Positions 1,981 through 33,091 of a stretch of DNA of 64,000 nucleotides are shown piece by piece; within the stretch, counting starts at the first letter, position 1; every line of letters starts with the position of its first letter. The notes below the pieces were generated by a model. The model was not told where the DNA came from. It worked only from the letters and a program-made list of their open reading frames with translations, and did no database searches. The position numbers and the translations under genes were made by a program. The DNA comes from Loxodes magnus (taxonomy: Eukaryota > Ciliophora > Karyorelictea > Loxodida > Loxodidae), in assembly GCA_946699065.1 (NCBI GenBank), contig CAMPDV010000237.1, positions 124,001 through 188,000 of the forward strand. Direction: 5' to 3'.

Positions 1981-1982
1981 TT

Positions 1983-3750
1983 TTGATTAAGCGAATAACT
2001 AACTTTGGCTTTAGTAAAATCCGCTTTAACATTTTCAAGGATTTCTTTAGATGCATTTTAACTTTAAAGGTTTAGTATCTTATTATATTAAGACTTAAAA
2101 TCATAATGCTAAGCTAATTATAATAGACCCCTTTGTTAAATTTTCTTTTTACTTGTATTAAAATAAGCCTAAGGCTATTTGAAGTTATGTAATACCTGAC
2201 TAAGAAATTAAAGTTGGATTAAAATTCTTAAAGCTTATTCAAAAATGCTGATTTGTTTGCAGTTAAGACCTAGACTTAAATTATAATAACAAGCAATTAA
2301 AGCTTCTATTTCTATTGCTAATCTTTCTACACCGATCTTCATACTTCTATATCTGAATAATAATTAGCTTCAGTTAATATTTTTGGTATACAATATCCAT
2401 CATTCTGACTTTCACTCTAGAATGGTTTGTTTTCATTCCTTTATAAAATAAAAATGATTTTAGATATAAACTAAAAATAGCATTTATAGTTTTCTAAGTT
2501 TATTAATAATATTTACTTTATAAACTTTAGATAGTCAGTTTAAGAAAGTAGCCCCTGATTTATTAGTGGAGTATCTTATAAAAAATCGGGCCGAAATTTT
2601 ATTTTTTAGAAGTGGAAAAAAATTAGGAATTTGAGTGTCTTTTAGATAAAAATTTTGGAAATTGGGATTAAAATTCTAAAGAAGTAGTTAATGATCATTC
2701 AAGTTTAAACTTAGTATTAAAGATTCTCTATATTAGGGATAAACTAGAATTAAGAATCAGTTTCAAGTCTAAACTTCTAATTCAATTAAAATTTCTCTCT
2801 AGGAAGATTCTTTAAAAGATAAAATCAGTAAGATCTTGTAAGTGCATTTGAAATAAAAATAATTTTAGCCTTTAACAAGTTTAGTTACCTGAGATGGATA
2901 AATAAAGGATAAAAGTTAGCTTCGTTATTAAGTGGTTTTAAATCAATTAGTTAGAAAAGAATGGCTGAGAATATGAAATTATTAATTGAGATATTTTAAT
3001 TTATTGAAAAGTAGGTATTGGATATAAAGACTTGCTTGCTTAATTAAAGTGGTAACATCAGTAAGATTAAACTTATCATTTAAAATTTATGCTTTCATTT
3101 ACTACTAACTCTGAGGTTTGTTAAAAACAAAGCCCTATCTATTAAAGTTAAAATTCTAATACTTTAAGAAAAAGAAAAATAAGTGGCAATAAAGATCATA
3201 GTTGAAGATAGTAAAACTGGTGAAATTAAAGCTAGTCAGTTGCATAATGTATTATTAGTTTGATTATTTGCACAAATAAATTTCTTAGCTAAGATAGAGA
3301 TGGCTTTAATTCGGAAATTAAAACTAAAGATATAGAAGAAAAAGTTTGGAGTTCGGTATAACTAAACCTTTTTCAATTTATTATAAATAAAGAATAAGCT
3401 TTAGCAATTTAATATTATTCGAATTGAAATCTAGTCCTCTCTTAAAGGTAATATGAAGTAATCTAGTTCTTGTAAAAGATAATTCTGTTTGGAGAGATAT
3501 AATAGGAAATATTTATTTAAAGGAATCTATTTGTATAATAACTAATATCTCTTATATAATAGTGCCAGAATTTTAATTTGATAGCGTTTTTTTATTTAAT
3601 AAACTAAGATTAGAAAACTTATCTTCGATTCTTTAAGTTTCTCCAGAATAATTTCTAAATTTAAGTTAGCTATTTAAGTTCAACTCTTTAATAATTAGTA
3701 AAGTTAATTTTTACATAACTCTTAGAAATTTTTAATAGAGTTTATAGATA
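1983..3750 (+). pseudogene. Leucine-rich coding region broken across three frames
   Basis: Protein-like sequence runs on the plus strand but changes frame repeatedly: about 1983-2280, 2521-2600, 2602-2820, 2823-3300, 3302-3540 and 3541-3740. Typical pieces are KNKALSIKVKILILQEKEK, IIVEDSKTGEIKASQLHN and NKLRLENLSSILQVSPEQF. The spacing of leucines suggests a repeat or solenoid protein, but I cannot name a family. The frame changes could be several short introns or frameshifts of a decaying gene; no set of GT-AG introns joined the pieces cleanly. The minus strand at 3300-3700 also reads as hydrophobic protein, so the strand is not certain. Confidence 0.3.
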
Positions 3751-3789
3751 TTTTATGTATACACCCCTAGATATATCCTTAAATAAAGT

Positions 3790-4680
3790 ACTTATTAAGG
3801 TAGAGGTATGAGAATTTTAAAGAAGAAGAGATTTGAACTTTTTTGATTTTTACATCTTTATGTCTTACTTTTTCCATAGCATTTAATTGATTTTTATATG
3901 ATAATTGTTTTTTAACTTTTTTCCAAAGCAAAAACAAATCTTTTTGAGACACACTTAAGCTAATGCTAAGCATAAATATTAAAATAGTAAACCTAGAAAT
4001 GGAATTAAATAATCTTCTCTTAATCAGATCTATTAATTTAAAGTTATTTAAACTAGCTGTTTTAAAATTTGTTTATCTACTAACTTGCGTTCCTTAGAGA
4101 AATATTAGAGATAAAGTTATAATAAGTATTTATTAAGGATGTACTTTAATTTTTAACTTGTTGCGTATATGAATTCTATTTTAGCTTTATTTAACTCAAT
4201 GTATTAAATAGTAATTGTTCGTGATATTTTTTTTATATAGATTAATAAAATTTTCGTCGCTCTTCAGCCATAAGTTTCTATCTACTTCTTGCTTTCTCTG
4301 TTTCCCAGTCATTTTTTTTGATAAAATTCATTTTTTTCTTGTTTCTTGTCTTACAGCTTCCACTTATAAAAAACGAGAGTTTTACTTAAAGTCCTTTCTT
4401 TCTTTTATCTTAGCAATTTAAGAATAATACATCATGTAAGGTATTTATTAATTACTTTATTCCCTTTCTTAATCAAATTAAAGATAAAAGAAATAATTAA
4501 TCTTATAGCTCTAAATTAATAACCTATTAGCTCTCGTTTTATTAAAAGCCTTCTATAAAAAAATATTTTCTACCTTGTTAATATTTTTTAGTCTCCCTTT
4601 TCCAGAACTATAAAGCTTTTAAAATTGCTTTTTCTAAAGACAGAAAAAGCGAGTTAATTACTTTCACCTGAGAAGGATTT
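3790..4680 (-). CDS. Possible unidentified protein, lysine/glutamine-rich
   Basis: Reading the minus strand with TAA/TAG as Gln gives convincing protein between about 4480 and 4200, for example KNDWETEKARSRQKLMAEER, and a second piece near 3970-3790 (KNQLNAMEKVRHKDVKIKK) in another frame. An intron or frameshift must lie between them around 3970-4020. Upstream of 4500 the same frame stays plausible to about 4680. It lies directly downstream of gene A on the same strand and could be a separate gene or an extension of it. I recognise no domain. Start, stop and exon structure are unresolved, so the coordinates only bracket the coding-like text. Confidence 0.35.
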
Positions 4681-4984
4681 TAAATCCTTAATTTTAAGAC
4701 AAATCAATTTATTATTTCATGCTAATAGAAAATTAATTTTGACTTAGTTATGCTTCTTGGCTTTAATCTTAATTAATTTTATCATTTTAAAAGTAACTAT
4801 CCCAAAATCTTATTTTCTTAGGCATCGATTTATATTAAAAATTTTTGATTTTAAGTTAATTAAATTTTTTTGCTAGTGAATACTAAGTTTTTTCCTTAAT
4901 GATTCATATAGAACTTTTTCGTTTAGATTATCGAGCAAAAAATACGTTTTTTTATCTTAAAAATATTTAACAAAATGTATCTAA

Positions 4985-7900
4985 TCAATCTTTTTCCTCT
5001 TCACTCAAATTTTCTTTTTTCTCTACAAAGAACTGTTCTAGCTTTATTAACTTAATTTGCTGATATACTTTTATAGCGAAATTTTCAAACAAATTTGTGA
5101 ACTAAAAAATTCTTTTATTTTCCAGGAGAAATTTTAGCTTATATGGAGGTATCAAATCTTATGATACTCCGTCGTAATTATTCTACAGAATAAAAGCCTT
5201 ACACTGTAAATAAATCTAGAGTTTCCTTAGTAAATGTCCTTCGCTATACTAACTTTGTCTATATTATACCTTCCAACATTCATGTATGTAAATAGCAAAA
5301 AGTACTACACGCAGCTTCCAAGCACGAGTAAATTTGTTGTATTCTCTTTCCCTGATTTTATCAACTTGCACTTGTCAGGCTAAAGACAGATTTATTTTAT
5401 AAATTACTTAGTGAAGATAAAAAATGAAATGATCATACTACATTATTTTCTGCATTAAAGCGTACCTGATTTATGAAGAAGTTATTTGCTAGGTTCTGCA
5501 TTTCTCGAAGTTAGTTGTAAACCACTAGAAAAATTAAGAGTCAAAATCATAAAGTATGAGCTAAATAAAGTAAAAGCATTCCAAAGGTAAATATTATATT
5601 CCATTTTCTAAGTTAGAAACAAACCTCTCTGATACCTGACATAGTAATTTAAGTTATTGTTGTTGCTCTGGCGTTAAGGTGTCACTAAGCTAATTTTATA
5701 AAAACTTGTTGTATGTTGAGAATATTTGATTCTAATCTTTCTAGTTTACTTCTTCAAACTATTTTTTGATATGCTATTATCAATCTTCTTAGAGTAATAT
5801 ACTGAACTAATACTTTTCATCGTTTATTATTTCTAAAAATAAATCCTGAGTATGCTTCATTATTCATTTTAAGCATCTATTTTTAACAAACTGGAAAGCT
5901 TATTTTATTTGTTCCTCTGTACCGTTTAGTAGTTGGATTACTTTTTGCAAATTCAGATTGCTTTGAAGGATTTCTTATTTATATTAGTTAACTTCTTTAT
6001 TGTTGTATACTTTTTTTTAGGATTTATATCAACTTTACCTTGCTTTTGTTTTTATCCAACCATCACTCTACTCGGAAAGTTCTTTATTTATTTAGTTAAG
6101 TTACTATATTTTTTAGAGAAATTAAAAATTTTTCTCCAAAAAGCTTATTTTTTTGGCTGGCTTTTATTCCTAATTTTTAATTTAAAAGGTTGGAGAAAAT
6201 AAATCTATATTTTCTTGAGTTTCTGAAGGAGGCAACTATTTACTTACTTTTATCTTCAAATTTATTCCGTTTTGCTTTTTATCTGAATCAGCTTCTTGAG
6301 TATTCTCATTTTTATTGGCTTAATTTGTATTTCCATTTTCACTTATACTCTTTCCTTAATCTTATTAGTCCCCTTATTCGTCAAGTTCACTATTATCATT
6401 TTTTTATAATAATGGAGTAAGGATCTGGTTGTTAAATGGCATTCTTTTAATTTATACGGTCATGTTAGATTTCTTAAATTGCCTTTTCTTTATAGGTTCA
6501 GTAGCAAAAATAGGGCTTTCATTTTTAGATACAGAAAGCTGATTTTCATCCTTTATATTTTTAACAATCTTTAGATTTACTAAAGTGTCCTCTTTTGATG
6601 GAGTTTCGTTAAATTGGGAAAACGAAGCTCTAACGTTATTTACTGGAAATGACTAATTCAACATAATTTCGATTTGGCTTCCTTCCTTTTCTTTTGTGTC
6701 TTATAGATCTTTTAAGCGTGCTTTGGATTTTTAACTATAATTCTTTACTTTTACTTTAGACTTTATAGGTTCACTCGTTTTTCTTGGATTAATTTGAAAT
6801 AAAATCGAATTTCTTTCCTCATCAAAATCAGGATTTTATTTCGGGTTTTCTATACTCAAATCTTTTTAATCTGCTGGTTTGAGTTCCTTATTTGAGGCAT
6901 AAATTGGTTTTCCCTTGTTGAATTATAATGCTGATGGGTTATCTTGGAACTTCCTTTAATTCTAGATTTTTTAGTTCATATTTATTTTGGATTTATTTTT
7001 AATGTTTTTAACCTAAGCTTTCTTTCGTTGCATTATAGAAAAGTTACAACTTTAGTTAAGTTTATTATTTTGTAAGCTGCTCTTATTTGCTTATTCTTAT
7101 TCACAATTTTCTTCCTCCGAGGATATAAATGCATTTTAATCTGATTCTGATGATTTTTCCTCTTTCTAAGTTGTTAGAATTTTCTATGGACTTTGCTTTT
7201 ATTGCCTTTAGCTACTGAATATGTTTTGCTTTGTAGGTTTTTAATCCAAAATCGATTTCTTAGAACTTTCTTCTTCTTTTTACTTTTAAAACTATAACCT
7301 TTCATGAGATTTAAACTCCTATATGACATCTTAATTCATACTCTACTAAAGAGCTTAGTTTGGAAACTAAATTTTTTATTTACTCTGCCTCTAATCATTA
7401 ATCTAATAATTCCTACTTAAATAACTATTTTCAATCTGATTATTTAAAACATGAGGACTACATAAAATCGAAACTAGTTCAGATTAACCTTTTTAGTGTA
7501 TATTGTTAGCACTTTGATATTTTTAAAGGCTTGACATATTTTAATTGAAGCTGGTATTTTCCTCTTTTATACTATCGAAGAAACCTATTGATTAGTTTTA
7601 GTTTTTCCTTTCGTTGCTTATAATATCTACGTTCTTTTTAATGTTTTGTTTTCCTTTTTATTCATTTGGTGCTAAGATTGAGTATCTAGCCTGTTTTGAT
7701 TAAAAGGCACTAATAAGTTCTATTTTTTCTAACTAAGCTTCTCTGCTATTTAGTTTGATTCTTTTATCATTGATATTCTTCAAGTCTTTGGTGTTTCTAC
7801 TAAGAGCAAGATCATTTTTAACGTACAGTCCAATCTCAAAATTATTCCCTACTTACTTTTTATTTTTCTCCAAAGGTTTACCAAGTTTAGACTTCATAGG

Positions 7901-8032
7901 CTTTTAAGCTGTAGGAGAGATAATAGTAGTAATCTCAGGTTAATTATACCGGTTGAAAATTTTTCTAGGTTTTCTAATATCAACAGGAGACAGCGAAAAG
8001 GTATTAAGTTAGGTATTAAATTGAGCATTCAT
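4985..8032 (-). CDS. Gene A: large unidentified protein with conserved C-terminal domain, paralog of gene B
   Basis: ATG at 8032 opens 1,015 codons ending at TGA 4985-4987 when TAA/TAG are Gln and four in-frame TGA codons are read through (6029-6031, 5864-5866, 5780-5782, 5375-5377). Residues 1 to about 650 are low-complexity, rich in Lys, Gln, Asn and Ser, and contain no TGA at all. Residues about 670-1010 are mostly helical in character and align along their length with gene B at 21743-24766. Shared blocks include NFEKCRT, MPLEC/LPLEC, FLLENKRI and LQNNYD. The TGA at 5780 faces TGG in gene B, the TGG at 5522-5524 faces TGA in gene B, and the TGA at 5864 is TGA in both. I do not recognise the family; a disordered N-terminus on a helical C-terminal domain would suit a scaffold or regulatory protein. 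The TGA at 6029 faces TGT in gene B and is the weakest of the four. An extension past 4985 with that TGA read as Trp cannot be excluded. Confidence 0.8.
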
Positions 8033-8148
8033 TTATAATACGATGCTTTATACTTATAAACTTAATTAAGTCAAATTAATACCTATTAACTTTTTAATGA
8101 TATCGATTGTCATTAAACTATTACCAAAAGTCAATTAAAAACACTCAG
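8033..8148. promoter_or_regulatory. Shared upstream region of two divergent genes
   Basis: These 116 bases separate the ATG of gene A (minus strand) from the ATG of the plus-strand gene at 8149. The spacer is A+T-rich like the rest and I see no distinctive box. If both starts are right, it must hold the promoters and 5' untranslated regions of both genes. Compact divergent pairs are common in ciliates. Confidence 0.35.
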
Positions 8149-9090
8149 ATGTATAAAAATAAATTTACACTTAGAATTTTATAATCCAGAGTGGTCTTCC
8201 TACATCAAACGTCTAATCTTATCTACTACGATTTTTAACTATTCTTGAAGGAATAAAAAGTAAATAGTTTAAAGGAATTAGTATATCTATGAAAATTTTA
8301 TTCACTTGAAGCTTTTGGTGATATCTGTAAATAAGTAATAGAAATAGTTGAGAGAAAACTCAGTATTTTGTATTAATTCTTATAACTTAATAAAGATTTA
8401 GTTTAAGTTTTGGAATTTATTGCATTCATTTTAGTAATAAACTAATAAAATTCCAGTGAAGCATTTTGACTTAAAACTAATTTTGTTTCGAGTTTGATTT
8501 TAATTTTATATTAAAAGTAGTGTAATAATATTAAGCTCCAGGAAAGAAAGATTTGTCTAGTAGAATGTGTGGAGAAAGATTTTTCAGGTTTTAGTTGTAA
8601 ATTTCGCAAGGTAAGAAATTTAGGTATTGGTGAATGAAAATTATGAAGCTTTTTATCATTTTCTTCAATATATGATATATATTAGGAATTTAATTAGGTT
8701 AAATCCACATTAAGGTAGAATTAGTTTAAATGTGTCAGTTAAGCAAGAGAATACAACTAAAGGGAATATCTTTTTTTACTTTAAGATTGCATATTATAAA
8801 TTAAGAGAGCCAGTTAATTTACCTGATTGGATAGAAAATATAAAACGAATCTTACTTAATAGACAGACGAAGAATCTCTACTAAAATTAATTAAATAAAT
8901 TTTCTGTATAAAATAATATTAAAATAGAAGTAGTAAAGGCGTCTATAAGCAACTTTAAAATAGTTACCGAAAATGCTTGCTTTTCTTAAAAAAGTAAAAT
9001 AATTATTAAATTTTAATAAAAATATAGCTTAATAATACATAGTTAGCTTGCTATACTTTTAAATAGAATTATGATTTAAATATAGTATGA
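8149..9090 (+). CDS. Unidentified 313-residue protein, divergent neighbour of gene A
   Basis: ATG 8149 to TGA 9088-9090 gives 313 residues with TAA/TAG = Gln and five internal TGA codons (8290, 8467, 8635, 8644, 8824). The text is protein-like throughout: KLQERKICLVECVEKDFSGF near residue 130 and FSSIYDIYQEFNQVKSTLRQ near 170. Cysteines are frequent in the middle third, but their spacing fits no metal-binding motif I know. The five TGA codons fall in contexts such as LxKFYSLEAF and GExKLx that suit Trp. No signal peptide or membrane helix is obvious. The reading rests on composition and frame continuity only, because no paralog lies in the window. A+T content rises sharply after 9090, which supports the end. 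Confidence 0.55.
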
Positions 9091-11479
9091 AGTGGTTTGA
9101 AAATAAAATAAGCATTTTATTATATTTAAGATTCTAAAATTTTATTTAAACTATAAACATTTTAATACACTAAGAGCCTTTATAATCATTAAACTCTTAT
9201 AAACTTTTATATTTTTAATTAAATTTTAAGGATATTAAAATCTTTAAATTTAGCAAGCTTCAAATCGAAATTATTAATATATAAAATTTAATTTTTTTTA
9301 TATTTTTTATATTTATAAGAGGAGTTTTTCAAGTTCTGCTACTTTTCTTCAAATATATTTCAAACGTAAAAGTATTAAATTTAGCTAGTATATATCAAAA
9401 ATATTAAATATGGTTTATCTCTAATTAAGTCATACTCATTAAAAACGATAGGAGTGGGTTTACTTTTTTGATTTATTTTCTAATTACAATTCTTAAAATT
9501 TTAAAATTTGTTTATTTTGCTAATTTTTCTATTTTAGTCAATTAATTTTTTTTATTGTCTTAAAATTAAGCGCTTTTTTCAATACATTAATTATATTATT
9601 AAAAAATAAAAAAAAAGTAATAATAATAGATTAATGTAGTACCACCTTTAATAAATTCACCACAAAAATGATGTTAATATTGTTAGATTTAATTCCATAC
9701 AGATTCCAATCTAGCTTGCTCTACATATAACTCTACTCTCTTTTCCAACACTTCTTCGATGAGATATAATAATTTAAAAATAGATCATATAAACAAAAAT
9801 CCAAAAATAAAAATGAAGAAACTTATTTTTATTAATGATTTTAAGATTGTACATTTATAAATAATTAATAATTAATAGTTCTATTTAAGATTATTTTCAA
9901 TTTATTTAACCTTTTTAGGTTTTTTTAAAAGCTAACTTCTTTACGATTGTTTGGGAAATCTTAATTTTTTGGATAAATAAATTCTAAAATTTTCTTTTTT
10001 TAAGCCTTATTATAAAAACTTTGACATATAATATGGGTAAATTAAAGTTAAGTATATTTTATTTTAAATTATTAAATTTAAGCATTAAAAAAGGAAATTG
10101 AAAAGCTAGAATCATAACTAATAAAAATCTATTTATTTTCATATTATTTTTTAAAATTCGAAAGTTTAACAGAAGGGCTAATAAAATAAAAGTAGCTAAT
10201 AGTTAAAATAATTTTTTAGTAATAAATAAATATTTATCTTAATTATAGAATCTGGGGTCTAAATTTTAATATATTGATAAAATTGTTTAATTCAAATTTT
10301 CAGCTTTTTTTATTATTTAGATATAAAATATTTAAAAATTTTTTAATTAAAAGAACTTAAAAATATCATATAATATGAAAATATAATAAAAATTAAATTA
10401 GTCTAATTTCAATTAGAAATTATCCTGTCAATTTTAAACATTTTTTATAGGCTCAAAGTTCATCTATATATAAATTAAAAATATTTTTAGTTTTATCTAA
10501 GATTAAAACTAGATGAAGCCAAAAGTTTTTTAATTATTTTTGTGTTTGCAAAGAAAAAAGGAAAAAGACTTATACTTATTAGATTCTGTACATCTTAAGA
10601 TTATAAAAAATTAAATTTACTAATATACAACTTATAATAGTGACCAATAACTTGCTTTTATATTTATTCTTTTAATTTTAAATCACTTTCAAATCATAGA
10701 GTCAAGAGTATTAATACTTTTATTTAGATCAGAAATATAAATTAATCTTATTCTAAGAATCTTCTAGTTTTTTTAATTTAAGGATTATTTTAAAAAAAAT
10801 CTCCTTCTATTATTTAATAAAAGTATTAACTATTATAATAAACGATTTTCGATAGCATTTTTGAACTATATGAAGTCCGCTTTTATTTTAAATTAGAGAC
10901 TTATAATTTTTAAATTAATTATATCTTTATCTTAATCTTAGTTTTTTAATAGGCTTTTTAAAATAATAAAGTTGTTTTTCTCTTGTCAACAATTATTAAA
11001 TTTCTCTTATTTTAATTACAATTTTTTAGTACATCCTTACCAAAAATTATAATAATGATTATTATTAACTTAAAATTATCATTATAATTTTAAGTGACTT
11101 ATGCAACTACTTATCTAAATGACTATGTAGTTACCTTACAAAAATACTTTTTTTATAAATTATTTATTTTTGACTGAAAACTAATTATTTCGATTTTTTT
11201 ATTTTTCCTTTAAATAATTTAAGATTTATTAGATTATTAGAGATGCCTTTTGTGTATTAAATTTCGACTTTTTTATCTTCTATTTACTTCTTTGTTGTAT
11301 TTTGATAGCATTTTAATTGCAGCAAACTGGCTTATCTTTTTATAATTATTGCAGAAAAAGATAAAACATATCAGCAACAAATTTTAATTATACATCCCTT
11401 TTATGTTTTCAATCTTTTTCAACTTTAATTAAATATAAAATGGTAAGTCTTTACTTAAATAACCCTTTCAGATATATAA
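9091..11479. other. A+T-rich intergenic region with one small coding-like remnant
   Basis: The stretch is mostly homopolymer-rich A/T and I see no gene over most of it. On the minus strand between about 9840 and 9640, one frame reads as a hydrophobic helix followed by a charged segment (LIEEVLEKRVELYVEQARLE) and HHFCGEFIKGGTT. This resembles a fragment of a membrane protein, but I cannot identify it and find no start. Imperfect palindromes such as the one at about 11045-11090 are expected at this base composition. Confidence 0.4.
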
Positions 11480-13753
11480 ATGATTTCTTAAATGAAGAAG
11501 ATTTGTCATAGTTAAACTTAAGCTACTAGTTACTTTCTTAATTAAAAACTTTAAAAGTTAACTTTATTTTGGACGGAAAACATTTTTAATCTTTTCTTAG
11601 ATATTTCATTTCCTCCTTTTAAAATAAATCCTTGAATACAAAATTATTTTTGTATCTAACTTTCTTGTTCGATCATAATATCCTATTTTATTTTACTAAG
11701 TTATATGACTTTAATACTTATATTTTTTACTTTTGTTCATAAAGTCTAATTTTTAAATCAAGCATCATATATAAAATAAACATACAACTTCTATGTAATT
11801 TAAGTGGAATAGTTATTCAAAGTTCGCATTCACAATTTTAAGATAAGATATATTACTTTTCTATTTTGAATTCTAATTTAATATTATAGCCATTTATCCT
11901 TAATTTATTCAAGCACTTTCAAATAAATTTTACCTTCATTAATTATTTCAAAACTATTTGCTAACCTTTTACCTATTTAAGATTCTTTTGTATGATCATA
12001 TCAAATGTTTATTTTGTAAATCTTCAACGTTAAAATTATCCTTACTTAGTTTCTAATAGCTTAGAAAATTAAAGCATCCTTATTTAAATAATTAATAATA
12101 AAGCCATCTAAATAAATCCTGTTTATTTAGAATATAAATACAATCCCCTTACGATTTTATCTTTTGGTTTAAGTTATCAATCTTAGTAAAAATTATTTTC
12201 CTAATTTGTGCTTTTTAAATTAAAAAAATCAAAAGATAAATAATTTTTTTAGCCTAAGATATAGCAATAGATATAAAAGGTCATTGTATAACTTAAAATT
12301 TATCATTAGAGTGAAGCTTTTTAGATTTAATAGTGATGCTAAACTTTATCTCACTTAATAAACAAAAAATTAAGTCAGTTCGCATAATAAAAAGCATTAT
12401 ATCATTTGCACTTTTACAGCCATTTCTTCTATTATTTTTATTTCTTAATTGTAAACTCAGGATTCATTGCAAAACTTAAGCAATATTCATGAAGTCAAAA
12501 AATTATAAAATAAGGAAGTATAATGAGAATAGCTTGTAGTAAAGGTTCAAAAATAATCTTTAAGTTTGAATAAGTTAAATAAAGGAGCTAGTGATCTAAA
12601 ATAAGAAATATAAAAAAAAGAAATGATATTATAAGATAGGCTCTCATTGATATGTAGGGTCTAATCAAAAATTTTGCTGAATGTATTTATAAGTAAATTA
12701 ATTTGAAAATTAGAATTCTAGATTATAAGCTAAATAAGAGATATTGAATCAATGGACTAATAGAATATATGATTTAACTATTTAGGATTTTAAAATTAAA
12801 AAAACTAGTTTTGGTAAAAAATGCTTGAGTGAAAAATAAGCAAAAGAGAATAATTATAGATAGTGTAATATAAATAATAAATTGCTGTTACTATGAAAAG
12901 TGACTAATATGAAGGAAAATTAATAAATGAAAATAAAATTTAAGAGATACGAAATAAAATTATGAAGCAATATTAGATGAACTTATATAAAAAGAGACTA
13001 AAGGGTTTCTTATATTAAAAAATATGAAATATTAATACTTTAGTAAAAATCTTGGTTCTAATTGAAGTTATTTTTAAATATTTGATAATTGATTAAGCTA
13101 AAAATGTAAAAAAGTTGTTATAATCCAGGAAGAAGAAATGGAAATTCGTTCTAGATATGAAGATATTATGAGAATAAAAAATTAAGAGTGTATAAGGTGT
13201 TATTTATATTAATATTCATGAAATTTTAGGAATTAAAAAAGTTACAAATAAGACTTATTCAAGGGCAACTTAAGAAAATTTAATTATCGTAGAAGGAAAG
13301 TACGATAAAATTAATATTTATTTAGAGATGATTAATAAAGTTAAAAGTAAGATGTAAATATTTTAAGAAAATATTAAAGAGTTGTTATATGCATTTTATT
13401 TAAGGCTTGCAATCAAGTTATTTTCAATGTATTAAGATTTAGATAATTTACTTAATTGTTCTTTATTGTTTTCTTTTTCATTCTTTGATAATTTTAATTA
13501 GCAGGTTAAATATTCCTCAGAAATTTGTTGTTTAACTCCATAGAATTTATTGGGTAATGACTGTTTAAGAAGAATTCTTAATAAATTCTTTTGCTGTTTA
13601 CTTTTTTTGTGTTTTATAAGAAAGATAAGAAAGTATTGCATTTATTTGATGAGTAAATTATAAAAATAGAATTATTTTCAGGTAAATAAAATAATTTTTT
13701 TATTAAAAATATTTGTGATATATAAGACATATTATAGAAACTAATGTAAATGA
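11480..13753 (+). CDS. Probable membrane protein with coiled-coil C-terminal half, unidentified
   Basis: ATG 11480 to TGA 13751-13753 stays in one frame for 757 residues with TAA/TAG = Gln and about nine internal TGA codons in Trp-like contexts. The first third is T-rich and encodes hydrophobic stretches (IIISYFILLSYMTLILIFF near residue 70) that could span a membrane. The middle is a likely coiled coil (ASDLKQEIQKKEMILQDRL). The C-terminal third contains SRATQENLIIVEGKYDKIN and ends in a Cys-rich hydrophobic segment near CLRRILNKFFCCLLFLCF. I recognise no family. The gene converges on alpha-tubulin, leaving an 89 bp gap. The N-terminal third is the least certain part, because T-rich noncoding DNA also translates as hydrophobic protein in this code. 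Confidence 0.5.
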
Positions 13754-13842
13754 TTACACTTTGCTATTTATTTTTATGAAATTTAAATAAAGAAAATATT
13801 TTTAATTTTGATATTTAAAATTTTTTTATAATTCTGAGGTTC

Positions 13843-15207
<1,365 letters not shown>

Positions 15208-16472
15208 TTTGTCTCTAGGGACGAATAAAAGAAAAAATGGATGAGGTATTTATACTAAATTTTCTTACCCAAACCTTCAACCCAAAAGAAAATTGTAAGT
15301 AAAAAAGTTTAGATTTGAATAAAAGATTTATCTAAAGGCTTTAATTGTTATCTGTTAAATTCTGATAAAAGACTAAATATGGAAAATAGAATACTAAAAA
15401 CTTAATTTAGAGTGTTCTAGAAAGTAACTATTTAATTTGTTCTTTCAAAAGTAATGAAAATATTTAATTTTTCACTCTATATTAAAAAATTATAATTGAA
15501 GGGTTAATATTTCCATAGCCATAAAAAAATCGATATGCTTAAGTAAAAAAAACAATTATATCTTCTATATTAATAAGGAAGGTTTAAAGAAAAAATGTAA
15601 GAATGAAATTTTTAAAGTTGAATAGTGAGATATTTTTTCACCTAAAAATTTATAGCTACAACAGATATATTGAAATGACTAAAGAGTTCAAGAAATATAA
15701 TGTAATAATATAAATCTATTTTAAAGCTTATAAAATAAATATCTGTTTTATATTAATAAAATTAAGAAGAAAGTAAGGGTAAAATAACTAAAGGAATTGG
15801 ATAATTAATAAAATTATTTTTTATTTCGTAAAAAACTAAAAACTGGTGATTTAAATTAATTTCAGCTGAAAATAATTAAATGATTTAGCTTTGAGAAATG
15901 TCTTGATTGTGTTCATACATCTAAATAGAAATTTATTTTAATTATTTTTTTAATAAAATTATTATAAAATTAATTAAAAGAAGAGAAAAGCTGAAAAAAA
16001 TCTTTTATTATTTAAAGAAAAAAAAATTTAGATTATAGAGAAAAAAGCATACAAAGAGTGTTTTTATTCCTTTAGAAACAAAAAAATTAAATTTAATCTT
16101 CATTTTATAAATTGATTCAACAAAACTAAATCAAATTTTTTCAAATTATTGATAAATTTGGTAAGATAGAAAAAATATCTAGGAGTTAAGGAAAAAGCTA
16201 AAAAAGATAAAAATTGCATATAATAAAATTTATATTATATTTTATGATTTTTTTAAGGTTTTTCATAAAAAGTTTAAAATGGATTGAAAACTAAGTCTGT
16301 CATCCAGTTATTTGGAAATGTGAAAATTTTAAATATCTGGACATTGCATTAAAGTCTGCCTATCTAGTTAATATAATTATCTCACTATTTATATTGCTAA
16401 GATTTTATATCTTAATTTATAAATTAAGTGAGTCAGTATAAATTTAAGTTCTTATATTAAAATTCAATAAAA
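15208..16472. other. Upstream flank of alpha-tubulin and spacer to tRNA
   Basis: A+T-rich spacer between two confident genes transcribed in the same direction. It must contain the tubulin promoter just above 15207, but I see no diagnostic promoter box. No coding frame stands out. Confidence 0.5.
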
Positions 16473-16545
16473 CGCCGACTAAGGGACTTGAACCCTTGAC
16501 CACCAGCTTAAAAGGCTGGCGCTCTACCGACTGAGCTAAACCGGC
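16473..16545 (-). tRNA. tRNA-Lys (anticodon UUU)
   Basis: A complete 73 nt cloverleaf on the minus strand. The acceptor stem pairs GCCGGUU with AGUCGGC and is followed by discriminator G. The D arm is GCUCAGUCGGUAGAGC, the anticodon stem CCAGC/GCUGG encloses CUUUUAA (anticodon UUU), and the T arm is AGGGUUCAAGUCCCU. There is no intron and no encoded CCA. Internal A and B boxes fit RNA polymerase III, and four T residues (16472-16469 on the minus strand) immediately follow as a terminator. It decodes AAA/AAG, which are abundant in this A+T-rich genome. Confidence 0.97.
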
Positions 16546-17148
16546 TTATTAAATATGCTTTAAAACTCATTAAATACTTCATTGATTCGAAATATTAATC
16601 ACTAGTTCTTAAAATTGTGATTATCTAATCTATTATCTCTCAAATATGAAACAAGCTTTTATTTTTATATCTAATTCTCCTTTCTTAATACTAAAATCCC
16701 TATATTCAATAAAATATTTAATATCTATATATTTTAATTTTCCTTTATGTCACGCAAAAATTTTAAGCATAAAGCTCAAAATCCAAAAATTATCCTTATT
16801 CTCAATTATTCTAAACATCTAGATAGTTAGCGAAACATCGTTATATTGGGAGATTTGACGCATTATTAGTAAAGCTTAACAATAGGTAGAACTAAAGTTA
16901 GTAGTCTATAGTTAGTTTTAGACTATTAGTAAGACTCTTAATCTACCTTCGCTAGTATTATTTTATGGTATATATACACTTTATTTAATTATGCCTATTT
17001 AATCCTATACTATTAAAATTTAGTTAGCAGCATCTATCTTATATAAATTAATTTAAGAATAAGATAACTATAAGAATTGTAGCCTATCTAAGTTTGTGAA
17101 AATAACTAAAGTTAGCTGAATAAAAAGTTTATAAGATTGAAAGTTTAA
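16546..17148. other. Intergenic spacer
   Basis: A+T-rich sequence between the tRNA gene and the plus-strand gene at 17149. I see no supportable feature beyond a few short imperfect inverted repeats. Confidence 0.4.
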
Positions 17149-18081
17149 ATGAATGAAGAAAATAAATTAGATTCAAAGTAAATTTTACTTTTGTCCTCAA
17201 TTAAAGAAGAGACTTATTAGCAGAAGTATAATATTAGCAGCATGCTTTTTAAGAAGTGGCATAAGCATAAAAAACGCAAATCTCTAGATTTGAACAAGGA
17301 AAGATATAATAAAATAGTATTTGAATTAAGAATTTAGTTTCTAACTTAAACAATAAAGTAGAGCCATCATAAAATAATTCTTAGAAAAATAGATAATCAA
17401 GTACATAAATTTCTATATTTCAAGTTAAATTAAATACAATTTCAAGAAAAATTTATCATTAACACTAGAACAAAATTCATAATGAGATTTAAGTAAATAA
17501 GGCATAGTTTTATTAAATAAAAAGACTTTAAAAAAGTCTGAAAATATATGTTTGAGCAGAACCTGAAACAATAAACCTTGTGATAAGGGCTTTATTCAAA
17601 ATTTAAGAATTGATATTAGGATAGCAGTACAAATAAAGTTATTGATAAAGATAAAAGTTTATTACTTTGAACTTGAAATTCAGCAAGAAGATAAATTATA
17701 AAAAAGCTATATCATAACAAAAAAGTTTTGCTCTAATATAATAAGTATATTTCAATACCTTCAATTTACTATATAAATTACACAAGATACATTTAACCAT
17801 TAATCGATATAAAAGAAAAATATTAAACCTCAACTCCTTATCGATTTAAAATGAACTGAAAAATAAGGAATAAAAATGTATAATAAGTTAAAATGTAGGT
17901 GAAAATGAAATATATTCCGATTTTTAAATAGACTAAACCCATTTTCAAAGACAAGAATAACAATTATGAAAGAGATTGGCAAATTTTTTCTCAATAATAA
18001 TATCTGAACAGCCTATCAGTTTAAAATAAATGATTATCAGAGTAATAAAGACTTAGAAAAAATTATTAGATTATTAAATGA
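17149..18081 (+). CDS. Unidentified basic, tryptophan-rich protein
   Basis: ATG 17149 opens a frame that reads as a strongly basic protein of about 310 residues (MNEENKLDSKQILLLSSIKE at the start, FKKWHKHKKRKSLDLNKERY near residue 35, KTKPIFKDKNNNYERDWQIF near 265). In-frame TGA codons at 17539, 17581, 17611, 17668, 17674, 17857 and 18031 lie where Trp is plausible (KVxKYMFEQN, NxYQDSS, LLxTxNSARR), beside ordinary TGG at two sites. The true stop is unclear: TGA at 18031, 18079 or 18247 would all serve, and I chose 18079-18081 because sequence quality falls afterwards. The Lys/Arg/Trp pattern suggests a nucleic-acid or membrane-associated protein, but no family is recognised. The frame stays open through the repeats and the GC-rich island downstream, probably by chance. 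Confidence 0.55.
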
Positions 18082-18137
18082 GATAAGGAAAATAATAAGT
18101 AGTATACTTCTTTATTCTTCACTCTAAAGATATACTT

Positions 18138-18184
18138 AAAGTAAATAATAAATAAATAAATAAATAAATAATAAATAAATAAAT
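18138..18184 (+). repeat. TAAA microsatellite
   Basis: About ten tandem units of AAATA/TAAA immediately downstream of the preceding gene. It probably lies in its 3' flank. Confidence 0.8.
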
Positions 18185-18235
18185 TTGATTATAGAGTGCG
18201 TAGCACTCTCGTTGGTGCGCAGCTCTTTAAAAAAA

Positions 18236-18375
18236 ATGTTTCATACTGACAAGAATGTTTGTTACTGATAAAATTATCAGATACTGATAAACCTTGTTCA
18301 ATACTGGTATAATTATTCAGTACTGATAAAAATGTTCAATACTGATATAATTTTAGAATACTCGTAATCTTTAAT
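18236..18375 (+). repeat. Degenerate tandem repeat, unit about 19-20 bp (core ATACTGATAAAA)
   Basis: Six to seven diverged units follow one another. Cores such as TACTGACAAGAATGTT, TACTGATAAAATTATCAG, ATACTGATAAACCTTGTTCA and ATACTGGTATAATTATTCAG recur every 18-21 bases. The array ends at the boundary of a GC-rich island. A small hairpin (GAGTGC/GCACTC) with GC-rich flanks precedes it at 18194-18212. Confidence 0.65.
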
Positions 18376-18530
18376 ACTTGCTGGAGGTCCAAGGACATGG
18401 CAGGATTGTGTCTCACTGCATCACCAAAGCAGAGGACGACATGTGTCAATTATGGGTACTTAACTTCCCCAACCTCTGATGAAGATGCCCTTGTTGTTCA
18501 CCTTCGAACAACTATGGCTGTTTTAAAGAA
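18376..18530. other. Isolated GC-rich island of unknown nature
   Basis: About 50% G+C in a region near 20%. The boundaries are sharp: A/T repeat on the left and ordinary A+T-rich DNA on the right. It contains GGAGGTCCAAGGACATGG, CCAAAGCAGAGGACGACATG and AACTTCCCCAACCTCTGATG. All three plus frames and at least one minus frame translate into protein-like text with few stops, so coding status cannot be settled. It does not resemble tRNA, 5S rRNA, spliceosomal RNA or telomerase RNA as I know them. Options are a transferred gene fragment, part of a mobile element, or a structured RNA. Confidence 0.5.
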
Positions 18531-18540
18531 ATATATAATA

Positions 18541-19613
18541 AATAAAATTTAAGAGTATTTTCCAAAGCTCTTAGCGAAATCATAAATTCGATAATCTTTT
18601 TTATAAGAATAATAATATAAAGCAAAACTAGTTCTTAGACAAAATAGAATGATAAATACAAATTCATAACCAAATAAGTATCTTAAAGATGTTTACTCCT
18701 AAGAATAATTAGAGCAAATAGACTGAAAGATAACATAGAAAAAATATCCTAAAAATTAAAAAATACAATTAATTTAATTCCTTAGAAGTTTGCTTACTTT
18801 ATAAATTAAATTATATATCTTCGATTTTGGCTTTCAAGTAATTTCTACTTACTAAGCTAAATTAAAAAGTAATAGCAAGGAATTAATTTACTATATAAGT
18901 TATAGAAAAAAATTTAGTTAGGTATTTTAATTTAAAAATTCTAGATTTTAGTTATTTGCTAAATTAAAAATAGCAAAGCTTAAGTTATAAAATACAAATT
19001 CCAAATTTTTGGAAATATAGTTGTATATTCAACTTACAATATCTAAATTTTTCTAAGTATATTATAATTTAAATTATTAGCATATGGCTTTCTAAACTTC
19101 TCAAAGGAAAAAATTTAGTAAGTTTGAAGCAACAAAAATTAGAATATTTTTATTAAGTCCTAAAATATTAAAATTCTCTTTCAGTTCAAATAAGTTAGCC
19201 ACAAATACTAAGCAAATGGCAATTCTTATACTTTAAATATTTACTATCAACATATTAAATATCTAGATATGCTATACTTAGATAAAGATATATATACTTT
19301 AATTAAATTTAAAATACTTAATTTAATGCTTTCTTTTAGAATTTTGTCTATTTCTAGTCTTTTAATAAATTTCTCCTTTACTATGTTTAAATTTTTTAAA
19401 AGTTAGTTTTTCTCTTTGAGCATGCTACTAGAAAAGGCCCTAATTTATTCAGATTAATTACACAAAATTAAAATTAAGAAAAACAGCTAAAAAATTAGAT
19501 GCTAATAATTGGATTAAAACTCTTAATTTCTCATTTATAAAATACCTTAAATATATAATTATTCTTTATTCTCAATAGTTGCGATATTTACTCAAGATTA
19601 GCTTCTTAATAAG
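18541..19613. other. Intergenic A+T-rich spacer
   Basis: No frame gives convincing protein and no RNA gene is visible. Confidence 0.4.
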
Positions 19614-21170
19614 ATGGAGTTAAGATAAGGTTTGAATGAGATAATTATAAAAATTTAAGTTGCTTTAAAGGATTAAAAGATAAGGGGAATATTAATATGA
19701 TAGGATACTGTTGCTAAATAGTTTATAGCTATGTATAAATAACAAGCTTTTTACTAGGATTAGATGATAGAAGAATAATAAGAGCTAAAATATAAATGAA
19801 ATATTTAACCTTTCAAAGTTTTAATTTATAATGTATAAGAGATTCTTTGATTAATGCTTATTTATACTTAGCTGTTTCCTTTTGTAAGGTATAATAACTT
19901 TATTTATTGAAATAGATATTAGGCTACATTTATACCTTAATGGTAATTTTAATTATTCTTAATTAAATTTATTTGCTTCAGTAAACAAAGCAATGTAAAT
20001 CAAATACCTAATTAAATGAGATAAGATTGTATAGAGAAATTAAAAATATTAATACCTATAGACTGAAAATATTACAGTAATATATCAATTTTACAACTAT
20101 ATAGCACTTAAAGTTGCTTTTAGTTAAACTTTATAAATTATTTTTCTTATTTTATATCATAAAGCTAGGCCTTTCGCCCCTATTTTGTTATATAGCGAAT
20201 AAGTGTTAATTTTACTATTTTATGAGTACAATTTAGGTATATAAATTTCTATGGCTTTATTAAATTTAAATATTAAGCAATATCAATTTATTTGACTACT
20301 TTGAATAGATTCTTTAGTGAATTTATCAATCCAAATATCTTATTAAGGATAATTAATTAATTAGAGGACTCTAGTTTATCGTTCATATAGAAGGAGCATA
20401 CTCAATTATATTAGTGATTATAGAATACTCTTTAGTATTAAAACCTCTTAGGGATTTTATTAAATCTATAATAAATTAAAGTAGAACTATTAAAAAGAAA
20501 GTCAATCTTCTATATGTTTTATTATAGCTATTTTGATATAATTAAGTGATTAAGATTGAAATCGTTTAATATCTATATTTCCTTATTTCATAAGTATAAA
20601 AAGCTTAGCAGCTAAATCTAAATATTCCAACAAGATGCTTTATTAGCTTATTTTATACAAGAGGAAAACGAGAAACATTTAACTTTTAATTTTTTAATAA
20701 TTAGACTGTTATTATAGTTAAGGGTTCAAACAAAAATTCTATTAAAACCAGAACTAAGCTAATATAAGCATTTCTATATTGGTTTATTAGTTATTGGATA
20801 TAGTTATAATTAAGCTAATATATCAATAGCCATACCAAATTCTAAGATTTAATCTTTAAATTCTATTTTTATTTTATTTTCTAAGGTCTAAATCGGACTA
20901 AAAGCTAGATTACTTATTTTCTTTAATTAAATCAATTATTTTTCTTCACTAGGCTTATAATACAATCTATAAAGGAAAGCGAAGGAATTAATAAAAACAC
21001 TTATATTTAAACAATAAAAAGTGATAAATATACCTTAAGATAAAAATCTGAAGATAATTCAAGGTTATTAGAGAAAAATAAAATTAAAATTGATTGGGTA
21101 GAAAAGAGCATTCCCAATTGAGAGCATACTAAGCTATTATGCAAGTTATTATGCAGAAAAAGGTAAATTA
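19614..21170 (+). CDS. Unidentified protein, leucine/isoleucine-rich, 3' end unresolved
   Basis: ATG 19614 starts MELRQGLNEIIIKIQVALKD and the frame stays protein-like for about 500 residues (LTTLNRFFSEFINPNILLRI near 230, QIFQQDALLAYFIQEENEKH near 330, KIQSLNSIFILFSKVQIGL near 410). Eight in-frame TGA codons fall before about 20550 in Trp-like contexts (GILIxQDTVAKQF, IPIDxKYYSN) and none after, so the stop could be TGA at about 20548 or lie beyond a missed intron. The frame runs open into gene B, which cannot be right. Frequent Leu/Ile at regular spacing suggests a helical or repeat protein. I do not recognise a family, and the end coordinate is only where the coding character fades. Confidence 0.4.
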
Positions 21171-21742
21171 ATTTTTTATCTCGATATTTATAATTTCTAA
21201 ATTATTAAATCACTTAAAATTATAATTCCTAGGAGTAAAACCATATAAAGCAATAGATTTAGCTCATAAAACTTAAAAGGATAAAGCATAAATAATAAAA
21301 ATAGTAGCAATCAATTAGTTATAATAAGCTGCTTCTATATAAACAACACACTTTTATATCCTGCTTAAGTTCTATTATTCTAGTCAATCAATTATTACCT
21401 AGTTATAATACTTTATTTATCTTTTAAAATTAAACCTTTATTTGTATATTATTACTATTTATAGCCTCTGTTGGCTTATTAAAGAAGTGCTTATGTATAA
21501 CTAATAAATGCAAGAATATTTATAACTTATAGATAATAAGATTAAAGCAGAAGCTTATTTGCAATATGTATTTAAATAATTAAGTGGAAAGAGTTAATTA
21601 AGAAGTACTAGTTCTTAATATAGATAAGGTAGTTGATAATACTTACTTAGAGATTAAATTAAAGAGTTAAAGCTTTTTATTTAAATTAAATAGGAATAAC
21701 TTTAAATTCTAGTTCACTTTTCAATTTATAAATATAGCTAAA

Positions 21743-24700
21743 TATGCTTTTATCATCAGTGGAATCTCAGGTATTAGATAAAACGAAAAAGAGAATTTAT
21801 GTGCCAGGAATATTAAATGATAATGATTCTGGGTTTAAGTTTGCCTATTCAAAAGGTGGTAGTTCTCAGTTTAGTAATTAGGGTGAAAAGTTAGGAAAAA
21901 ATAATTAGATTGTAGAAAAATGCCAAAGTAAAGAGATAGTTCCAAGCAAAAGTTAGGATAAGTAAAAGATTTATCAGGAAACAAAGCATGAGAGAGTTAG
22001 TTTTGAAATATAAAACAGCAAATCTGATACCTATATCAAAAGGTAAAACAGTGGAAAAATAAATTAAATCAGTTAAGCAAATAAAAACGATAAAAAATAA
22101 AACCTTAATAAAAGTTTAAATATCTATACTAGCGAATATAATAATAACAAATATAATTTTAAATTTTTAGCCAGCAAAAACGAGGAAAATACCAAAATCA
22201 AGGAAAATTTACAAGAGAATTCTTAAAAATAGCAAAATGAATTTAGTTAAGGCTTACAAAATCAGTTTCTAAAAGTCTCTAACTAAAATTAAAAAAACTC
22301 GGCTGTAAGTCAAGAAGAAAAAAATTTCTTAAATTTAAAGTTTACTTCCTGATGCGAAAAAGAAAGCGCAAAAATAAACTTATAAAGACATAGTGCGTAA
22401 TTAAATAATTAAGAAAATATTCAAAATAGCTAAAAAATTTAGATTCTTGAGAAAAGATTAAAGTCTGAGGAGGAAATTTAAAGCAGACTATTTTTCGTTA
22501 GAAAATTAGATATCTAGAATAAAAGCCTTAACAAGTTATAATCTATCATAAAATAAAATGAGGAGTCAGATTTGGAGTCATTTTCAATAACATCATCCGA
22601 AGAAGAATCGAATAGCTAAGAGTAGAATTTTATAAGCATTCTATAGTATAAATAATGGGATTAAAGCAAATAAAATACTTTTGTGTAGCGTAAAAGAAAT
22701 ATAATTAGAAATAATTAGGAAAAACCTTAAACTAGTATATAGAAAGACTTAAAATACTAATAAAACTTGAACTCTTCCTATAACAATTAGTTGGACAATG
22801 AGCTTCAAAATTCTCTAAGATTGCAAACATAAAAATAGCTCAGTAAAGAAGTTTACTTCTCAAATCCAACATAGAAAGTAAGCTTCCGCTCAAGTAGTTA
22901 AGCTCAAAGTAGAAAATAAGATATGGATTAGACTAATATTAGAAGAAAAGAAAAAGCAAAATTTGCCTGTAAAATTATTAGGCCATAGGTTGGTCTTGAA
23001 GAAGATTAAGCACCATAAAAAATAAAGGTAGACTAAATTGATGCTTTAAATTAATCTTTTCCCAACACTTATTCAAATAATTCCAAGTTGACTTAAACTA
23101 CTTTAACTAATAAAGAAAAAGAAAAATTATAACTTAAACCAAGAATTTTTATTAATAATAAAGAAAGTAGTACACTTATAAAAGATTAAAAGGAAAAAGC
23201 AGAGTTGGAACTTTCATATTTTAAGGTAAGAAGATAAAATAAAAAAAATACAATGAAAATATAAACAAAAAAGCCTAATTTACAAAAGTCAGCTTTGTAA
23301 AATCCTTTTACATTTTAACAGGAAAATTCAGCTTTGAGCAACTCAGAGAGCTAATCTTTTATTGATAATAGAGAGAAGTAAAGAAAATCGACTAATGCTT
23401 CAATTTAAAGTGGATTCAGTAATTAGATATTTAGAAACTTGTCAGGATCAAACTTAAGTTAAAGTGGAACAATCACAGAAGTATTAGCAGTAAGTGATAC
23501 ACATTTATCAACAAATGAGCTTTAAGAATATGATGAGTTAGTAACTCCAAGTTTTTAGATTAATGAAGCAGCAAATCAAGAAAAAGAACCTCACTTAAAA
23601 CTAAATGTTTTTGAATAAAAAATTGAATCTCTCTAAGAGATTCAGCAATTAAAAGAAAAGAAAAAAGACTTAAATAAAGTGAAAAAAAAAAAAATGGAGA
23701 ATAAAAAAGAGAAAGTTGTTACAGTACCTAAAAGAAAATATATACAGCTAATGAGATTCTTTTGTATAAAAAGGATATACTAAAGGTTAATAAAAACTTA
23801 CAAACAATAATTCAATTATTAAAAGAACCTTAGGAATAAATAAGAGAAGCTTGCTTCTTTGCACAGAAAAGATGCTTAAAGTGAATGATCAAGTAGAACT
23901 ACGAAGTACTTTCTGTGGTTATAAACTAGGATAAGTATTAATTCAAAATATTACTCGAGAAAAACTGGGAATAATACCAACTAAAGTAGTTCGCAGAAAT
24001 AAGCTTATTCTAATAGTAAAAAATATTATAAACTTATAATCAGTTTTAATAGAACTAGCTTAATGATTTTAAATCATAAGAGTAACTAAAGTAAGCGGAA
24101 ATAATAGGTGAAGTAATTGAGAAGTTGATTTAAAATTTCTAAGATAGGATCAGTTATATGCCATTGGAATGCCTTTATTTTTTAGATAAACTAATTTAAG
24201 ATTTTGACTCTCCTATTTTCAAGTGATTTAGTACTAATTTTGAGAAGTGTAGAACAGCATAATAGTCAGTCTTATTTATAAGGTAATTGATTACATAGAA
24301 AATAACAATGCATGGTCATATCATTCTTCATGCTATCTAAATTGCTTGTAAGAAAAATCTGTCTATAGCCTAGCAAGTGCAAACTGATAAAATCAATTTA
24401 AGAAAATAAACAAAATTTGTTGATTCTAGGAAGTTGCATACAATTTATTTTACTATTCACTTTTGCAAATGTTGGTAGAGAATAAATAGACTAGCAAAGT
24501 GTCGTAAAAGATATATTTTTAGGAAATACCAGATTCAGCTATAGTGTAAGTTTTTAAATTTATAGAATAACTATGACCAAGTTTCGTAATTTCTAATTCC
24601 TCCTTTTTTACTAGCATTCCTTCTAGAGAACAAAAGAATTCAATAATTCTCAAATTTATTCGAAGCTTTTGCCTTGAAAATACACAAGCAAATAAAGTTG

Positions 24701-24766
24701 ATAAAACTGGGACAGTTTACAGTTTCAGATATTGACTAGATATGTATAGAATAAAACTAAAATTGA
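21743..24766 (+). CDS. Gene B: large unidentified protein, paralog of gene A
   Basis: ATG 21743 (MLLSSVESQVLDKTKKRIYV) to TGA 24764-24766, about 990 residues. The first two thirds are low-complexity Ser/Gln/Asn/Lys-rich sequence with acidic runs (ITSSEEESNSQEQ) and no TGA in the coding frame. One frame change at the start is best explained by a 49 nt GT-AG intron (22339-22387). A second frame change coincides with a run of 13 A at 23682-23694. The C-terminal 340 residues align with gene A, including RCLKxxIK, YQFxILL, NFEKCRT, LQNNYDxVS and FLLENKRI. In that domain Trp is TGG at 23966-23968, where gene A has TGA, and TGA at 24224-24226, where gene A has TGG. TGA at 23882-23884 is shared by both. 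The function is unknown. Conservation of the C-terminal domain between diverged paralogs argues both are, or recently were, functional. Confidence 0.8.
22339..22387 (+). other. Probable 49 nt intron in gene B
   Basis: Begins GTTTACTTCC and ends TTTATAAAG. Removing it joins two protein-like frames (NFLNLK to HSAQLNNQ) and removes the only TGA in the N-terminal half of gene B. The length of 49 shifts the frame by one, as needed. Confidence 0.6.
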
Positions 24767-26269: not shown

Positions 26270-26860
26270 ACTATTTTTTAATTGATTTATTTATTATTGA
26301 GTTAGATTAGGATGTTTGTTAAAAATAAATTCTTCCATGAATCAATGGATTTATTTTTATTTCTTAATTAAAATTCATTTAATTATTTTTTTAGGGTTTT
26401 TAATTTTCTTAGTATGTGAAAATATTTCTTTAGCATCTCCATTTTGAAGTAAAAATTTCTTTTTTGCTTTATTATTTTAAACTTTCACAAATTATACTTG
26501 AAGTCTTTCCAAATTTGTTTCGCTGCTTCATGAATATTAGCTACTTATTAGTTTATTCTTCCAGATATAATGTGTGCTTCTTTATATACTGAGTTAACCC
26601 TTTTAGACCTAAATATTTCTTAGTAAGATCTCGAGGAAATTTGTTATAACTTGAATCTGGAATAAAGGATTCTAATGTTTAATCAGCATTGTATTAGATG
26701 TTATTTTTGATAAATTCATATTAAACTTCAAGATTATCTTAAACTATCTAAAAGAATTCTAGATAAGTTTGCAGGAAATATTCTAAATATTTTTGACGAT
26801 CTATTGCCTCTTGTAACCTATTTTTTTTATATTTCCTCAAATTCTTGCACATCTTCAATT
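26270..26860 (-). pseudogene. Fragment of a LINE ORF2 (segment between endonuclease and reverse transcriptase)
   Basis: Diverged but clearly homologous on the same strand to 35215-35790 and its duplicate at 53330-53850. Matching blocks include the segment around GTCTTTCCAAATTTGTTTCG, the FIPDSNYNK peptide and IHEAAKQIWKDFKYNL. Like both fuller copies it carries TGA after FKYNL. Neither the endonuclease nor the RT core is present. It abuts the start of the gag-like ORF on the same strand, so two broken elements lie side by side. Confidence 0.75.
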
Positions 26861-33035: not shown

Positions 33036-33091
33036 GCTTTTTTAGTTATTAATTTAAATTATATTTAAATTAATAACTTAAAGAGTTTTTT

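Follow-up and report, generated by a model that had tools for sequence, protein, structure and literature searches.

The nuclear genome sampled by contig CAMPDV010000237.1 very probably uses the code of NCBI table 27, in which UAA and UAG specify Gln and UGA both specifies Trp within genes and serves as the terminator at gene ends. The window analyzed here consists of positions 124,001 to 188,000 of this contig (64,000 nucleotides, coordinates below being counted from its first letter). The central observation is a two-way exchange of TGA and TGG between two paralogous genes, A and B, and it is accompanied by evidence from a pair of WD40 β-propeller genes, two copies of a long interspersed element (LINE) and an α-tubulin gene. 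A preliminary description of the window had proposed the dual meaning of UGA and the Gln assignment from A and B; these proposals now have support from the WD40 pair, the LINE copies and α-tubulin. The code itself is already known from karyorelict ciliates such as Loxodes, and a detailed description of it was reportedly given by Seah and others in 2022. What the window offers is two gene pairs with UGA/UGG exchange in both directions and a demonstration that an ambiguous stop/sense code can be recognized from the raw sequence of one contig. No report of a two-way TGA/TGG exchange between paralogs was found in literature listings that were mostly aimed elsewhere; such exchange is nevertheless to be expected because TGA and TGG are synonymous under this code and would drift both ways, hence the exchanges in the A/B and WD40 pairs.

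Exchange of TGA and TGG between Genes A and B

The exchange of TGA and TGG between A and B is confirmed. When the C-terminal domains were translated with UAA/UAG as Gln and UGA as Trp, they aligned over 349 codons with 47.6% amino acid identity, and the shared domain, together with every TGA, TGG, and TAG position and pairing previously given for the two genes, was recovered (Table 1). In the aligned domain A has seven TGA or TGG codons (4 TGA, 3 TGG) and B has four (2 TGA, 2 TGG), and all four of those in B lie opposite TGA or TGG in A (hypergeometric P = 5.8e-8 for 349 columns). For TGA alone, two of the four in A (P = 6e-4) and both of those in B (P = 3e-4) face TGA or TGG in the partner. 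The domain contains no frame-breaking insertion or deletion (indel), and its nonsynonymous (dN) and synonymous (dS) divergences under code 27 are 0.383 and 1.162, a ratio of 0.33. The earlier view that the pattern does not reflect recent decay of one copy is supported by the absence of frame-breaking indels and by the LINE copies described below, in which decay makes TGA from codons other than TGG.

Two other aspects of the preliminary description require revision. A shared domain had been described for the C terminus; this match stands, but similarity extends to the N-terminal parts as well, with 29% identity in an alignment of 578 codons. Part of this similarity stems from the abundance of Gln, Asn, Ser, and Lys in both, and the TGG of B in this weakly aligned part is opposite Leu (CTT) in A. 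Gene B had also been given as a single frame from 21743 to 24766, which does not hold, since its N-terminal frame can be followed from 21744 to about 23672 and its C-terminal frame from 23690, the change being near 23682–23694. This break may represent a sequencing error, a real mutation, or slippage.

Database homologs of the C-terminal domain, which had been looked to as a check on the TGA columns, were not found: for residues 640–1015 of A, none of 3264 candidates reached E ≤ 0.001, phage records yielded no match, and solved structures gave a single one, with E of 0.51. Gene A as a whole has no Pfam match at E ≤ 0.1, and an AlphaFold2 model from the two-row A/B alignment has a mean predicted local distance difference test score (pLDDT) of 34.2.

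The WD40 Gene Pair

On the sequence evidence, internal TGA behaves as Trp, as is seen in the WD40 pair. Each copy carries one putative GT..AG intron, of 20 or 22 nt, placed from the reading frame; the lengths are unequal modulo 3, and removal of each intron brings its copy back into the WD40 frame. The encoded proteins are 82.2% identical, with dN of 0.120 and dS of 0.303 under code 27 (dN/dS 0.40). Seven columns in which a repeat ends with Trp provide 14 sites in the two copies, and these are occupied by TGA in four cases, TGG in ten, and no other codon; copy by copy, the columns read TGA/TGG, TGG/TGA, and TGA/TGA once each and TGG/TGG four times. Beyond these columns another TGA is common to both copies, one TGA is opposite Asn, and one TGG is opposite TAG.

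When each of the 20 residues was substituted in turn for every TGA in 49740–50636, including the terminal one, the PF00400 score was highest for Trp (260.1 bits), followed by Tyr (256.2) and Phe (252.3), with the other 17 residues giving 237.3–247.9. In four printed alignments with chain 2ymu_A, from a solved WD40 protein, the TGAs at 49971 and 50097 are opposite Trp in all four and that at 49902 in three, with Arg once, the TGA at 49800 being outside the aligned range.

Divergence between the copies also bears on the frame. Comparison of the duplicate block shows 14 indel events, ten of which are in the 920-nt upstream flank. Exon 1 has a single indel, of 15 nt, that keeps the frame, and the intron and the end of the compared stretch have one event each. 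Exon 2 (881 nt), within which all of the internal TGAs lie, has none, and its mismatches by codon position (40, 35, and 67) show a third-position excess that persists beyond the first internal TGA (35, 33, and 62). The lack of indels together with this excess indicates that the internal TGAs do not interrupt the constraint on the frame. A 2-nt indel follows the terminal TGA at a distance of 39 nt, and the 80 aligned bases after exon 2 are 72.5% identical, as compared with 83.9% for the exon itself. Two other accounts of the internal TGAs can be ruled out: selenocysteine, by the occurrence of TGA at Trp sites of the WD40 repeats, and introns that hide the TGAs, by the continuity of homology across them in both the A/B and WD40 pairs. 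The inverted duplication in which the WD40 copies are located (31027–33076 and 48614–50673) has 87.0% identity overall.

α-Tubulin and the Assignment of UAA and UAG

UAA and UAG are Gln codons, as judged from the α-tubulin gene, in which two TAA codons and one TAG are all opposite Gln residues of chain 6u0h_A, from Tetrahymena. A search with the α-tubulin protein ranked mainly long proteins at the top, and the best-identity matches listed (96–97%) are metagenomic. The tail of the gene (13843–13890) shows a short tandem duplication and the terminal Tyr is absent, 6u0h_A ending in EEEGY.

LINE Copies and the Possibility of Decay

The first LINE copy encodes Exo_endo_phos_2 and RVT_1 domains (E = 7.5e-30 for RVT_1) and matches human LINE-1 ORF2 in one uninterrupted alignment (residues 330–1166), although it should be noted that an open frame is itself uninformative under table 27, because this code has no dedicated stop. 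The two copies have 11 TGA and six TGG codons in common, with no site at which TGA is paired with TGG; the common TGAs predate the divergence of the copies. Four TGAs private to the indel-bearing second copy are opposite TAA, TAA, TTA, and GGA, and the three that are private to the first copy are opposite TAA, GGA, and TAA, two of them in the last, badly aligned codons. Decay in these elements thus makes TGA from codons other than TGG, unlike the pattern in A/B or the WD40 genes. The duplication that includes the LINE copies (33096–38693 and 51194–56796) is 96.4% identical, and a further LINE fragment at 26271–26838 is 83–84% identical to parts of both copies.

These comparisons bear on an alternative in which UGA is a stop only, as in table 6 of Tetrahymena and Paramecium, and the TGA-bearing sequences (A, B, both WD40 copies, and the LINEs) are either pseudogenes or relics limited to the germline, with TGAs that arose by G-to-A decay of TGG. 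The LINEs and large duplications of the window, the frame break in B, the indels and private TGAs of one LINE copy, and an α-tubulin gene with no internal TGA would all be in keeping with it, but neither the WD40 exons nor the aligned A/B domain has a frame-breaking indel, the dN/dS values of the two pairs are 0.40 and 0.33, none of the four new TGAs in the indel-bearing LINE copy is opposite TGG, and TGA occupies 4 of 14 WD40 Trp sites at which no other residue is found. A code with UGA as stop only is contradicted by the WD40 Trp sites, the PF00400 scores, the A/B exchange, and the frame of exon 2, and is regarded as extremely improbable. The introns of Tetrahymena are longer than 20–22 nt.

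Gene Ends and the Base after UGA

The WD40 pair and α-tubulin support an end of the coding frame at terminal TGA. All three genes end with this codon, at positions that were fixed independently of it; the ends of A and B (from the preliminary description) and of the LINE (chosen here) were picked at TGA, so that the count of six TGA ends in six genes (A, B, α-tubulin, the two WD40 copies, and the first LINE copy) is partly circular as a test of the terminator. These six genes contain 26 sense TGA and 27 TGG in 4629 sense codons, so that about half of their Trp codons are UGA. In their last 20 codons, which amount to only 120 codons, TGA is absent (0.69 expected) and TAG is present three times (2.5 expected).

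It has been proposed for Condylostoma, Parduczia, and Loxodes that translation is the default and that termination occurs near the poly(A) tail, sense UGA, and in Loxodes UAA also, being rare in the last codons (excerpts of PMC4967479 and PMC11441545); the counts from the window genes, small as they are, are compatible with this. By extension from this published work, a Trp tRNA that reads UGA would win inside the message, and the release factor eRF1 would win near the poly(A) tail. A code of the Condylostoma type (table 28), in which all three stop codons are ambiguous and UAA and UAG also end genes, has identical sense meanings, with UAA/UAG as Gln and UGA as Trp (PMC4967479, in part), and the introns of heterotrichs are tiny too (PMC11441545, in part). 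However, no UAA or UAG end is found among the window genes with independently fixed ends, α-tubulin and the WD40 pair, and the window introns of 20 and 22 nt contrast with the 15–16 bp given for heterotrichs in the same excerpts of PMC11441545. A table 28 code is considered very unlikely.

In the six genes, the base that follows sense TGA is G in 0 of 26 cases, as compared with 10 of 27 after TGG (Fisher P = 0.0007); when the WD40 genes are left out, the counts are 0 of 19 and 6 of 16 (P = 0.005). G opens 21.8% of codons and is the next base after 26% of TAA, 22% of TTA, and 26% of GGA codons, but is rarer after AGA (14%) and TAG (12%). Terminal TGA is followed by G in three of the six genes, namely α-tubulin and the WD40 copies, which are related to each other. 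It is conceivable, but rather doubtful, that the next base helps to set the meaning of UGA and that the organism does not read UGA-G as Trp at all; the pattern is a post-hoc one from six genes, some of them related. The bases around sense stop codons are described as unconstrained in Condylostoma (PMC4967479) and the contexts of sense and stop codons as only slightly different in Amoebophrya (PMC6394959). The lack of G after sense UGA may be new and, if true of the whole genome, would bear on how sense and stop UGA are separated.

Points against the Assignment

A number of observations weigh against the table 27 assignment. In the A/B pair, one TGA in the C-terminal domain of A is opposite Cys and one is opposite Gln, the N-terminal TGA of B (22350) is opposite Asn (AAT) in A, and B carries the frame break described above. 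α-Tubulin contains no sense TGA. Of 15 listed families matched by the WD40 gene with TGA as Trp, Trp is the best residue in seven and another residue in eight, those preferred including Met (PF24817, PF25391), Glu (PF24814), Ala (PF25168), and Tyr (PF24105); the non-Trp preferences of these finer propeller models may be an effect of summing repeat matches. That the frame constraint of the WD40 pair ends at the last TGA rests on one indel and a drop in identity. Furthermore, the 5' flank of the pair (48614–49533 versus the inverted copy) is 91.6% identical as compared with 83.9% for exon 2 (49738–50618), as if the coding repeats had diverged beyond the flank by repeat shuffling or under diversifying pressure.

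The LINE copies have a dN/dS of 0.47, so not all of their divergence is neutral. In a comparison with 41 outside homologs in which TGA was masked, the 8 of 12 TGA columns that are covered by at least five homologs score +4.4 for Tyr, +4.0 for Phe, −0.5 for Lys, and −1.2 for Trp. Codon 1029, the TGG column with the best conservation, is, however, also rich in Tyr and Phe (21 Tyr, 8 Phe, and 4 Trp of 35), the other TGG columns being mixed, so that these distant homologs indicate aromatic sites without deciding for or against Trp. TAA is weakly depleted in the last 20 codons of the six genes (2 seen, both in B, and 5.62 expected), and the only tRNA found in the 64-kb window is tRNA-Lys(TTT), with no tRNA-Trp.

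Other Features of the Window

The window averages about 77% A + T and contains the α-tubulin gene, the two WD40 genes, the two LINE copies, the tRNA-Lys(TTT) gene, and large duplications. A duplication of 6.3 kb (38681–44938 and 57738–64000) is 99.2% identical, and Pfam searches with the three plus-strand frames of 38690–44938 gave nothing at E ≤ 1e-4, as did six-frame scans of 1–4900, 8240–13100, and 16700–21650. A tblastx comparison of the window with itself gave only noise, and no rRNA was present in the window at Rfam gathering scores.

Table 1. Coordinates of genes, codons, and elements in the window
Feature	Position	Strand	Description
Gene A	4985–8032	minus	Unknown family; 1015 sense codons, 4 TGA, 4 TGG; terminal TGA 4985–4987, end as in the preliminary description
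Gene B, N-terminal part	21744–23672	plus	Frame other than that of the C-terminal part; internal TGA 22350; limits chosen for comparison
A13 run	23682–23694	plus	Frame of B changes nearby
Gene B, C-terminal domain	23690–24766	plus	TGAs 23882, 24224; TGGs 23966, 24473; terminal TGA 24764–24766, end from the preliminary description
TGA common to A and B	A 5864–5866; B 23882–23884	A minus; B plus	
TGA of A	5780–5782	minus	Opposite TGG of B, 23966–23968
TGG of A	5522–5524	minus	Opposite sense TGA of B, 24224–24226
TGA of A	5375–5377	minus	Opposite TAG (Gln) of B, 24371
TGA of A	6029–6031	minus	Opposite Cys TGT of B, 23717
TGG of A	5318	minus	Opposite Arg AGG of B, 24428
TGG of A	5273	minus	Opposite TGG of B, 24473
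α-Tubulin gene	13843–15207	minus	3 TGG, 0 TGA; TAA or TAG at three positions of conserved Gln; terminal TGA
WD40 β-propeller gene, copy 1	31080–32151	minus	Exon 1 31983–32151; putative intron 31961–31982 (22 nt); exon 2 31080–31960
WD40 copy 1, TGAs	31896, 31851, 31599; 31080–31082	minus	Sense (first three); terminal (last)
WD40 β-propeller gene, copy 2	49534–50618	plus	Exon 1 49534–49717; putative intron 49718–49737 (20 nt, GT..AG); exon 2 49738–50618
WD40 copy 2, TGAs	49800, 49902, 49971, 50097; 50616–50618	plus	Sense (first four); terminal (last)
First LINE copy (non-long terminal repeat retrotransposon open reading frame)	51187–55557	minus	Single frame with endonuclease and reverse transcriptase domains; 12 internal TGA, 6 TGG; limits uncertain on both sides
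Second LINE copy	33096–37460	minus	In block 96.4% identical to first; six 1-base indels within frame

Comparison with Known Systems

The same code could also be that of a syndinian dinoflagellate (Amoebophrya sp. ex Karlodinium veneficum or its kin) rather than a karyorelict, and the window α-tubulin does not separate these groups, as it scores alike against chains of diverse eukaryotes. In Amoebophrya ex K. veneficum, UAR is Gln, UGA is Trp, and UGA is apparently the sole stop (PMC6394959, in part). However, its genome is 65.2% A + T (PMC12005148, in part), lower than in the window, and its dynein transcripts have 3' untranslated regions (UTRs) of hundreds of bases and strongly prefer UGG to UGA (PMC6394959, in part), whereas TGA and TGG are equal in number in A and B and TGA is twice as frequent as TGG in the LINE. 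The introns of 20–22 nt, moreover, fit Loxodes, and a syndinian source is judged very improbable. Blastocrithidia resembles the window in having UGA as Trp, but UAR is Glu and UAA is also a terminator there (PMC12153298, in part), whereas TAR occurs at conserved Gln positions of tubulin in the window.

The table 27 code of the karyorelicts Parduczia sp. and Loxodes magnus has the same assignments as those proposed for the window, with UAA/UAG as Gln and UGA as Trp and stop (excerpts of PMC4967479 and PMC11441545). UGA usage in Parduczia is 0.120% (PMC4967479, in part), for comparison with the 26 TGA in 4629 sense codons here, and depletion of UAA before the stop is weaker in the window genes than that described for Loxodes. 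In L. magnus, introns have a mean length of 19.3 and a mode of 17 bp, which the window introns fit; the 3' UTRs have 18.6% GC, as compared with 13–19% GC over 150 nt at the six gene ends of the window; and Exo_endo_phos_2 and RVT_1 LINE domains are abundant, as they are in the window LINEs (PMC11441545, in part). Taken with the code, these features fit Loxodes or another karyorelict, and a karyorelict ciliate such as Loxodes is the most likely source. No feature tested in the window excludes the karyorelict table 27 code.

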